This document shows, one piece after another, positions 4,923-7,582 of a DNA stretch of 37,599 nucleotides. The DNA is taken from NCBI GenBank assembly GCA_030728405.1, contig JANQZS010000002.1, positions 1 through 37,599 of the forward strand, given 5' to 3'. This DNA is from Candidatus Nanopelagicales bacterium. GTDB lineage: Bacteria; Actinomycetota; Actinomycetes; S36-B12. Positions within the stretch are counted from its first letter, which is position 1. Each line of letters opens with the position of its first letter. The notes beneath the pieces are model-generated. The model did not search any database, was not told the DNA's origin, and was given only the letters and a program-made list of their open reading frames with translations. The position numbers and the translations under genes are program-made.

Positions 4923-5858
4923 ATGAAGGCGGCAGCGACAACCTCTGGAGAGCTATCTCCAGATCTCACTGCGGCACTAGATAGTTTCGTAGTTCACCTG
5001 CGCGATGAGAAGCGTCGATCCCCAAACACCGTGCGCGCTTATCGAGTTGATGTGTATGAACTGCTGTTTTTCGCCCGAGGAGCCGGCGCCGTTGAGCCCG
5101 CGGACATAACCCTGCCCATGATCCGTTCGTGGTTGGCCAATGCTGGGGAGCGTGGGGCAGCAAAGTCAACCCTCGCGCGGAAAGCCGCATCTATCCGCGC
5201 GTTCACACGGTGGTGTCGGCAACGAGGACTCATCACGAAAGATCCTGGTGAGCGACTCACGTCGCCCAAAATCCCTAAGCGACTGCCGACCATCCTCGAT
5301 CAGGACCAAGCGGGCACGGTCATGGCGAGTGCCGCAACCCGCAGTGCTGAAGGGGGTGCGGTTGAACTCCGCGATCTCGCCATCATCGAATTGCTCTACG
5401 CGACCGGTATGCGCGTAGCCGAGCTCTGCGCTATCGATCTCGCCGACCTTGATTTTGAACGCCGAACGGTTCGGGTTACAGGTAAGGGAAATAAAGAGCG
5501 CACGGTCCCGTTTGGAGTCCCGGCGGCTCGTGTGCTTGTGGAGTGGCTACAGGAACGTCCACATTTTGCGACAGTAATTGACCAGGCTGCACTTTTTGTG
5601 GGTGTGCGCGGACGCCGGATTGATGCTCGACTCGTTCGCACAATCGTCCACGACCTGACCGCGTCGGCAGGCGTACCTGAGATCGCGCCGCACGGCGTGC
5701 GCCACAGCGCGGCAACCCACGTGCTTGAAGGTGGCGCAGACCTACGTGCCGTCCAGGAATTGCTCGGCCACGCTGATCTTGCGACAACGCAGAGGTATAC
5801 CCACATCTCCGTAGAGCGCTTACGAAAAGCGTTCGACCAGGCTCACCCCAGGGCTTAG
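4923..5858 (+). CDS. xerC: Tyrosine recombinase XerC
   Basis: A 311-residue site-specific tyrosine recombinase. All catalytic residues are visible: R164 (ATGMRVAEL), K188 (TGKGNKER), H257 and R260 (HGVRHSAATH), H283 (LGHADLATTQ) and nucleophile Y292 (QRYTHIS). The N-terminal SAM-like core-binding domain contains RSPNTVRAYRVDV. The Xer recombinase resolves chromosome dimers at dif sites; its place in the comM-dprA block, and the length, favour the chromosomal Xer recombinase over a mobile-element integrase. ATG 4923 lies 16 bases after the dprA stop. The stop codon overlaps the stop of the convergent peptidase gene by two bases, leaving no room for a conventional terminator. Confidence 0.94.
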   Translation: MKAAATTSGELSPDLTAALDSFVVHLRDEKRRSPNTVRAYRVDVYELLFFARGAGAVEPADITLPMIRSWLANAGERGAAKSTLARKAASIRAFTRWCRQRGLITKDPGERLTSPKIPKRLPTILDQDQAGTVMASAATRSAEGGAVELRDLAIIELLYATGMRVAELCAIDLADLDFERRTVRVTGKGNKERTVPFGVPAARVLVEWLQERPHFATVIDQAALFVGVRGRRIDARLVRTIVHDLTASAGVPEIAPHGVRHSAATHVLEGGADLRAVQELLGHADLATTQRYTHISVERLRKAFDQAHPRA

Positions 5859-6385
5859 GAGGGTCGACGATGCAGGGAAGGTTGTGCCACTGCCGGCTTG
5901 AGAGTCGGGAAGCCTCGTAGGAGAGTTAGGGGATTGAGGTATCGCTCACCTTGGCGCATGCCCACGTGTAGGCAACTCACCGGGCAGTGATCTCCATCCA
6001 CGAGCAAGCCAATGGCTTGGCCTCGAATCACTCGTTCTCCGACCCGCACTATCGCTGTCACCGGCTCCATCGAGGAGGTGATGCCCAGGCGCTCATGGGA
6101 AAGAGAAATAACCGGGCGACCGGCCACCATGCCGGCAAAAGTGACGGTGCCATCGGCCATTGCCCGAATCACCCCACCAGAGGCTGCCGCCAGGTCAATG
6201 CCTCGGTGCCCTGGTCCATAGGTGGAATGTGGCTCGAAAACCTGAAGAATCACTCGAGTACCGCCGACGGGCCACGCCCAAGTCCCTCGGGAGCCCTCCG
6301 CTGGGGCACCAAGGACTGCCGCGAGAGCCACGATTGCCGGAACACCCGATGGGGCCAAAAATTCGAGCATGTGCGCAGGCTGCAT
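5855..6385 (-). CDS. M23 family metallopeptidase, exported
   Basis: A small (about 176 residues) peptidoglycan-peptidase-like protein with the LytM/M23 fold. Zinc ligands appear as H60 and D64 in GHRGIDLAA and H140 in SCLHVGMRQGERYLNPL; position 138, the first histidine of the usual HxH pair, is cysteine (CLH), which I recall as common in the actinobacterial subgroup encoded next to rpsB. A hydrophobic segment near residues 7-28 ending in APAEG looks like a signal peptide or anchor. ATG 6385 was chosen; ATG 6370 fits the signal peptide equally well, and neither has a good ribosome site. It is the only minus-strand gene in the housekeeping block, divergent from rpsB. Confidence 0.82.
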   Translation of the reverse strand: MQPAHMLEFLAPSGVPAIVALAAVLGAPAEGSRGTWAWPVGGTRVILQVFEPHSTYGPGHRGIDLAAASGGVIRAMADGTVTFAGMVAGRPVISLSHERLGITSSMEPVTAIVRVGERVIRGQAIGLLVDGDHCPVSCLHVGMRQGERYLNPLTLLRGFPTLKPAVAQPSLHRRPS

Positions 6386-6523
6386 GAACGGGCACACGTG
6401 GTGCGAATTGCCAGCATTCAGCTGAGGAGGGTTGCCCAGAGGCCCGCTGGGTTGTGGACACTGGGCTGCCCTAGACTCAAGGGGCTCGATAGGAGTTCGC
6501 CCTAGGGACATTCCTGAAAGCAG

Positions 6524-6715
6524 CATCTGGTTCACCAGATGACATCTCGCGTGACCTTTGCCGGCTAAGCCGGACCGGTCATCTGTCGGTCCCACCTCGG
6601 TGGGTGCAGATGACGGAGGTCACCAGGGGCACAGCCACCCGGCATGTGCCGACAACCGATGAGCGTTGCTCGATCGCTTGGCCGCGGTCTGCAGCGCGTG
6701 ATGGGCAGTGTGCCC
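6524..6715 (+). promoter_or_regulatory. Highly structured 5' leader of rpsB
   Basis: This is the only long gene-free stretch of the window (6386-6730). It contains nested perfect complementarities: hairpin CATCTGG/CCAGATG (6524-6530/6535-6541, TTCA loop); outer stem GTGACC/GGTCAC (6551-6556/6618-6623) enclosing hairpin CCGGC-TAA-GCCGG (6561-6573) and hairpin GTCATCTG/CAGATGAC (6578-6585/6607-6614) with inner stem CCCAC/GTGGG (6591-6595/6600-6604); then GGCACAGCC/GGC-A-TGTGCC (6628-6650); then GGGCA-GTG-TGCCC (6703-6715) next to the Shine-Dalgarno AAGGAG (6718-6723). CAGATGAC occurs twice (6536-6543, 6607-6614), so GTCATCTG has two possible partners. A possible -10 box TAGACT lies at 6472-6477. 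Autoregulation by S2 or processing of the rpsB-tsf mRNA is inference. Confidence 0.7.
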
Positions 6716-6730
6716 TCAAGGAGTACCACC

Positions 6731-7582
6731 ATGGCCGTCGTAACAATGCGTCAACTACTCGAGAGCGGTGTCCACTTCGGGCATCAGACCCGTCGCTGGA
6801 ACCCCAAGATGAAGCGCTTCATCATCACTGAGCGCAATGGCATTTACATCATTGACTTGCAGCAGTCGCTGTCATACATCGACCGCGCTTACGAGTTCGT
6901 GAAAGAAACCGTCGCTCGCGGCGGATCAGTGATGTTCATCGGCACCAAGAAGCAGGGCCAAGAGGCGATCGCTGAGCAGGCAAGACGTGTAGGCATGCCC
7001 TTCGTCAACGAGCGTTGGCTCGGTGGAATGCTCACCAACTTCAACACTGTCGCAAAGCGCATCCAGCGTCTGAAGGAGCTGGAGCAGATGGATCTCAACG
7101 TGGTTGCCGGGTCCGGCTTCACGAAGAAAGAGCTCTTAATGATGCGCCGTGAGAAGGAGAAGTTGGAACGCACGCTCGGCGGTATCCGCGAGATGACCAA
7201 GACCCCTAGCGCGGTCTGGATCGTTGACACTAAGAAAGAGCACATCGCTGTTGGGGAAGCCCGCAAACTCAATATCCCGGTTATCGCGGTGCTTGACACC
7301 AACTGTGATCCCGACGAGGTTGATTTCCCGATTCCAGGCAACGACGACGCTATCCGTTCGGTAGCCCTGCTGACCAGAGTGATTGCTGATGCAGTGGCAG
7401 AGGGACTCATGGCGCGTGCATCCGGTGCAGCCGGTGTAGTGGCCGAGCCATTGGCCGAGTGGGAGCGCGAACTGCTCACCGAGCAGGTCGAAGCAGATAA
7501 GGCTGTGGCAGAGGCCGTGGCCGCAGAAAGTGGCGTTGTTATCGAGACCGTTGAGGTTTCCACTCCAGAAGCCACTGCCTAA
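6731..7582 (+). CDS. rpsB: 30S ribosomal protein S2
   Basis: Ribosomal protein S2 of the small subunit. The N-terminus [28 protein letters not shown], the [14 protein letters not shown] segment and [29 protein letters not shown] are diagnostic. At 283 residues it has the acidic, alanine/valine-rich C-terminal extension common in actinobacteria. ATG 6731 has AAGGAG at 6718-6723 with a 7-base gap; in-frame start codons farther upstream lie inside the structured leader and are rejected. It heads the rpsB-tsf operon, as in most bacteria. Confidence 0.98.

Follow-up and report, generated by a model that had tools for sequence, protein, structure and literature searches.

The rpsB 5′ UTR in the window, meaning the whole 37,599-nt stretch of DNA analyzed here, contains a conserved structured RNA at positions 6544–6663, as indicated by covariation among relatives. 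Very likely, this leader is an actinobacterial form of the S2 autoregulatory leader (t44, or rpsB motif), expanded by additional hairpins and acting by translational repression. What is new is the actinobacterial variant, the S2-leader kind being already known from Proteobacteria.

Architecture and transcription of the rpsB leader

From position 6731 onward the ORF list of the window, which belongs to a 2.1 Mb draft genome, gives the gene order rpsB-tsf-pyrH-frr-cdsA. The elements of the leader and its surroundings are as follows.

6472–6477, + strand: −10 box TAGACT of the rpsB promoter, conserved among relatives, 79 nt upstream of P1
6524–6541, + strand: P0, the 5′ terminal hairpin of 7 bp (CATCTGG-TTCA-CCAGATG), with the first CAGATGAC in its 3′ arm; read from the sequence
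6544–6550, + strand: single strand AUCUCGC before P1, consensus AYUUCGC or ACRCAC; conserved among relatives
6551–6557, + strand: P1 5′ strand, paired with 6617–6623; covariation
6561–6573, + strand: P2, a side hairpin of 5 bp (CCGGC-TAA-GCCGG) in the three-way junction; sequence and MFE
6578–6585, + strand: P3 5′ strand GTCATCTG, upper part of the main stem; MFE, with a helix at the same place in most relatives
6585–6590, + strand: J, the 5′ strand of the pseudoknot (GUCGGU), located 5′ of the apical hairpin and paired with 6655–6660
6591–6604, + strand: P4, the apical hairpin CCCAC-CUCG-GUGGG (arms 6591–6595 and 6600–6604)
6607–6614, + strand: P3 3′ strand, the second CAGATGAC, paired with 6578–6585; sequence and MFE
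6617–6623, + strand: P1 3′ strand, paired with 6551–6557; covariation
6624–6627, + strand: CAGG directly 3′ of P1, conserved; GGAGG in basal Actinomycetota and E. coli
6628–6650, + strand: P5, the hairpin GGCACA...TGTGCC with a (C)ACCC loop, separating CAGG from the 3′ strand of the pseudoknot; covariation
6655–6660, + strand: pseudoknot 3′ strand ACCGAU, inside the conserved ACAACCGA, paired with 6585–6590
6703–6715, + strand: hairpin GGGCA-GTG-TGCCC just 5′ of the Shine-Dalgarno sequence; read from the sequence
6718–6723, + strand: Shine-Dalgarno sequence AAGGAG of rpsB
6731–7582, + strand: rpsB, encoding ribosomal protein S2, first gene of rpsB-tsf; ORF with ATG at 6731, relatives in 58 of 59 genomes and in GTDB Actinomycetota

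The leader structure is very probably transcribed together with rpsB, because a conserved −10 box sits upstream of P1; similar boxes (TAGACT or TACACT) lie at a median distance of 41 nt upstream of P1 among 104 non-redundant relatives. We infer a transcription start at about 6484. A generic promoter scan returned no sigma-70 site, and the promoter call is made from the conserved −10 box only. A start downstream of 6624, which the earlier note had regarded as fatal to its proposal, is not indicated, as the box precedes the entire structure. No intrinsic terminator was seen in the rpsB leader. On the minus strand, an M23-peptidase-like gene (window 5855–6595) is divergent from rpsB, the nominal start of this long ORF being position 6595, within the rpsB leader. 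A similar M23-type gene is found beside rpsB in another locus (L081), and the gene pairing looks conserved in the class.

All of the stems described in the earlier note exist at the coordinates it gave, and the MFE fold contains the same three-way junction, in which the core pairing of P1 is GTGACC (6551–6556) with GGTCAC (6618–6623). The segment 6515–6735 folds at −101.1 kcal/mol, compared to −87.0 ± 4.7 kcal/mol for shuffled sequences (z = −3.0, 0/200). Because folding energy alone is weak evidence in GC-rich DNA and covariation is far stronger, relatives were compared. The P1 5′ strand GUGACC (6551–6556) has an alternative partner in the GGUCA that opens P3 (6577–6582); according to the predicted folds, this pairing can form an alternative structure before the 3′ half has been transcribed.

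Covariation and the pseudoknot

Leaders of rpsB were gathered from 58 genomes of the same family and order, from 80 named GTDB genomes and from other classes of the phylum. A covariance model built from 11 leaders of the window's family (R1) recovered 46 of the 57 first leaders, that of the window included, and these make up alignment A2. In this alignment, 22 of 26 tested pairs in P1, P4, P5 and the pseudoknot change on both sides and yet stay paired, with 264 double-change cells as against 77 in shuffles and 24–50 for slid structures, which bears out the earlier proposal of a real structured leader before rpsB. Double changes occur at all seven pairs of P1 (93–94% of cells paired), at all five of P4 (95% paired) and at seven of the eight pairs of P5. 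RNAalifold run on a raw MAFFT alignment of 53 leaders had recovered P1 only, because loop lengths differ, and this was remedied by the covariance-model alignment. A strict descriptor of the structure was satisfied by 165 of 198 leaders, in comparison with 52 of 990 Markov shuffles (5.3%) and 8 of 198 reverse complements (4%). Comparison of the two species of the genus shows 3 differences over 120 core positions (2.5%) and 50 over 173 upstream positions (29%); of the three in the core, one is in the P2 loop, one in the P4 loop and one in a P5 pair that has turned G-U. We count this low divergence of the core in favor of purifying selection on the leader.

The single strands that flank P1 are also conserved. 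UCGC before P1 is near-invariant in alignment A1, with ACRCACG in the basal actinobacterial forms, and the motif that follows P1 is invariant as CAGGGG in alignment A1 and as GGAGG in the basal alignment A4. Other parts of the leader vary. P2 differs in length among relatives and is bigger in Streptomyces; a hairpin is seen by eye at the place of P0, the sequence of which, together with its octamer match, is specific to the genus; and hairpins between the pseudoknot and the Shine-Dalgarno sequence were seen by eye within the order, not in Streptomyces.

The pseudoknot formed by 6585–6590 and 6655–6660 was missing from the earlier note. In the window it consists of six pairs, the first of which is G-U. 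Among the aligned leaders, the GGU immediately preceding the apical hairpin and the AACC downstream of P1 are both near-invariant, and the flanking positions covary: of 119 non-redundant leaders, 79 carry CGGU with ACCG, 7 carry CAGU with ACUG and 6 carry UGGU with ACCA, and UAGU with ACUA is also found. We permuted these 119 leaders such that the consensus of each side was kept and the pairing by genome alone was broken; 2.87 pairs beyond the anchor were observed, as against 2.21 ± 0.06 (0/20,000), and the resulting z of 11.5 is inflated by residual shared ancestry in a set thinned to below ~72% similarity. Several of the substitutions recur in unrelated genera. Compensated forms include CUCGGU/ACCGAG in Streptomyces, CCUAGU/ACUAGG in a Nocardioidaceae MAG (L161), CCUGGU/ACCAGG in L191, CAGU/ACUG in Janibacter and relatives (L165, L184), UGGU/ACCA in L201, L220 and L038, and AGGU/ACCU in L024. 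Compensatory changes, the absence of which the earlier note had named as a refutation of its proposal, are thus abundant. The ACC in the P5 loop was considered as the partner of J and rejected, since in L184 and L185 J reads CAGU and the downstream strand ACUG while the P5 loop is still ACC. In leaders of one family of the order (f3; L038, L042, L045, L048 and L055), GGUCC and AACC are kept and the flanking pseudoknot pairs are partly broken, because of which the element may be decaying or altered in this family.

Relation to the S2 leaders of other phyla

In E. coli, S2, helped by S1, represses rpsB-tsf (PMC10931766). The rpsB motif, which precedes rpsB, has been described as comprising P1, P2, P3 and a five-bp pseudoknot between J2-3 and the 3′ extension; its reported hosts are alpha-, gamma- and some other Proteobacteria, together with Cyanobacteria and some of the Firmicutes (Meyer et al. 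2009, PMC2704228). Actinobacteria are absent from that host list (PMC2704228), and an earlier mention in other papers on S2 leaders is possible. The window leader lies adjacent to and upstream of rpsB, has a P1 that carries P2 and P3/P4, and has a pseudoknot between J and a 3′ extension; it shares the P1/P2/P3 topology, the pseudoknot and the place before rpsB with the published motif, and differs from it in the branch point of P2, which is lower on the stem, and in the insertion of P5 ahead of the pseudoknot strand.

The E. coli rpsB leader is the Rfam t44 RNA (RF00127), with the core CACACACGUAUC ... CCGGGGUGCCC UUU GGGGUCGG ... GAUACGUGGAGGCAUAACCCC. In E. coli K-12 this leader (L060, 361–447) is annotated as the small RNA tff, and Rfam types t44 as an sRNA gene. 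The order of its core elements is that of the window, i.e. stem, GGU, apical hairpin, stem, GGAGG and AACC, with CAGG in place of GGAGG in the window. Both lie upstream of rpsB, and both have a two-part main stem, a GGU that pairs with an ACC beyond P1, and (G)AGG after P1, whereas the E. coli form lacks the P2 side hairpin, P5 and P0. Leaders from the basal actinobacterial classes have no P5 and read ACRCACGYC ... GGUGCC ... GGUC ... GGCGGAGGNNNAACC; one of the leaders (L218) carries GGAGGCAUAACC, as E. coli does.

The earlier note had not recognized the fold as that of a known family. As far as Rfam is concerned this stands: the window has no family match at gathering, t44 is absent from it even at E ≤ 10, and in 30 related loci there was no match to t44, with only chance matches at gathering or at E ≤ 10. 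By Rfam's rule (gathering threshold 44 bits) the window leader is not a member of RF00127. A blastn comparison of the window leader with E. coli also gave no match, as expected for a structured RNA. The topology, however, is that of t44 and the rpsB motif, and a covariance model built from 14 basal actinobacterial leaders with no proteobacterial sequence (R2) finds the E. coli rpsB leader at 32.8 bits and E = 4.4e-7 (132 kb searched; E = 1.6e-7 with filters off). The RF00127 model is too narrow to see its actinobacterial relatives. R2 also finds Actinomadura leaders (E = 2.7e-4 for L129, and 0.007) at the same place as does R1 (E = 2e-4 for L129), and on the window itself it gives a weak, partial match that covers P3, J and P4 only (11.5 bits, E = 0.25). 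Judging from these sequence comparisons, homology connects the window to E. coli in an unbroken chain, running from R1 through Actinomadura to R2, that is indirect because R2 matches the window only insignificantly.

Within the phylum, the association with rpsB is nearly complete. R1 has a single match in the window's own genome, at rpsB, and rpsB follows directly at all 29 of the best R1 loci of the class (28 recognized by pattern and L081 by translation); of the 61 R2 matches in the phylum for which an rpsB position was listed, a comparison by eye places 60 immediately upstream of that gene. An R1 match in genome G083 and an R2 match in G141, both far from rpsB, were taken as false positives. 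R1 alone finds the element in 40 of 247 class genomes, because Streptomyces-like forms differ in the lengths of P2 and P3, and the element is far commoner by direct reading of the leaders. Most of the actinobacterial phylum, Streptomyces included, has this leader.

Control of r-protein genes in Actinobacteria is little known (PMC8470358). The actinobacterial rpsO (S15) leader is likewise a pseudoknotted r-protein leader of this phylum, and autogenous control of rpsO was shown in mycobacteria, but gene, protein and fold are all different from those considered here (PMC4137082, PMC8470358). Elements of the same kind are the 20 r-leaders that Eckert and Weinberg (2020; PMC7247131) found by comparative genomics, some of them actinobacterial (L31, L17); none of these precedes rpsB in Actinobacteria, and rpsB figures among them only as a downstream gene of an L13 operon in Bacteroidia (PMC7247131).

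Proposed S2 feedback and its alternatives

By analogy with E. coli, and as the earlier note had suggested, the leader probably serves autoregulation of rpsB-tsf by S2, with binding of S2 itself a presumed step; this putative feedback function is well supported by homology and position. Transcription from the putative start at ~6484 would yield the rpsB-tsf leader. This RNA folds into the two-part stem P1/P3 with the side hairpin P2 and the apical hairpin P4, and GUCGGU on the 5′ side of P4 pairs with ACCGAU, which lies beyond P1 and P5, in the pseudoknot. Surplus S2, which in 16S rRNA contacts h26 and h35–h37 (PMC10931766), would bind and stabilize the pseudoknotted form, perhaps together with S1, and the clamped pseudoknot would block 30S loading at the nearby Shine-Dalgarno sequence. 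Repression of rpsB, and through coupling of tsf, would match the supply of S2 to ribosome assembly. Translational repression is favored because the pseudoknot is near the Shine-Dalgarno sequence in the basal classes and in Streptomyces and because no terminator was seen. The distance from the pseudoknot to the rpsB ATG is ~25 nt in Streptomyces and mostly 14–26 nt in the basal classes, but 76 nt in the window, because of which direct occlusion of the ribosome site appears less obvious in the latter. The hairpin at 6703–6715 could bring the pseudoknot and the Shine-Dalgarno sequence together in space.

The same fold might sense EF-Ts, S1 or a metabolite instead of S2, since it is the RNA alone that has been characterized, EF-Ts is encoded in the same operon and small molecules are conceivable ligands of a pseudoknotted RNA. 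We regard this as unlikely, given that the homolog of this leader in E. coli responds to S2 (PMC10931766) and that a metabolite riboswitch would be expected at several genes of one pathway, whereas this element occurs in a single genomic copy and at rpsB only. That the leader is a constitutive structure, which supports mRNA stability or provides a translation stand-by site in the absence of any feedback, would agree with the 5′ terminal hairpin after the start site and with the high expression of rpsB; a doubly compensated pseudoknot throughout the phylum, with conserved unpaired UUCGC, GGUC, CAGG and AACC, would nevertheless be costly for mere stability, and we consider this explanation quite improbable.

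The earlier note had proposed a switch in which GUCAUCUG (6578–6585) chooses between two copies of CAGAUGAC, one in the P0 arm and one in the P3 arm. Its sequence basis is correct, as CAGATGAC occurs at 6536–6543 and at 6607–6614 with one complement at 6578–6585, and both copies are kept in the two species of the genus. Each copy, however, lies within a stable local hairpin of its own, and beyond the genus the arrangement is unconserved: among 106 relatives, the 5′ arm of P3 is complementary to the 5′ hairpin region over 5.22 nt on average, as against 5.16 nt in shuffles. The duplication would seem to be a genus-level coincidence or a local peculiarity and not a mechanism of the family, and the switch is very improbable. 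Virtually no weight can be given to chance stems or to the coding constraint of the divergent gene, even though GC-rich sequence folds readily and a long minus-strand ORF nominally begins inside the leader, because the compensatory changes already refute this reading, the descriptor controls argue against it as well, and the divergence between species is high upstream and low in the core.

Leaders of r-protein genes are thought to be mostly lineage-specific. There is about an even chance that the GGU/ACC pseudoknot core of the S2 leader dates back to the common ancestor of Proteobacteria and Actinomycetota and was kept across nearly the whole phylum, that the Actinomycetes added P2, P5 and the hairpins that distance the Shine-Dalgarno sequence and perhaps changed the mechanism of repression, and that the S2 leader is among the oldest r-protein feedback RNAs. 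The phylum, Streptomyces included, gains a concrete and testable candidate for an S2 feedback leader, with intermediates that link it to E. coli, and a proper Rfam family becomes possible in place of t44, a family with a model that fails to detect any of the actinobacterial forms tested. The leaders form a natural series, with P5 present or absent and the pseudoknot near to or far from the Shine-Dalgarno sequence, through which the unexplained mechanism of S2 repression can be tested comparatively. P5 is optional, being absent in E. coli, some Streptomyces, Glycomyces and most of the basal-class leaders inspected (loci including L103, L112, L116, L120 and L170), and because it is missing in scattered lineages it has been gained or lost several times. 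In most relatives its loop (window 6637–6640) retains an ACC-type sequence closed by C-G, though not as the pseudoknot partner, and a tertiary or protein contact of this loop is possible.
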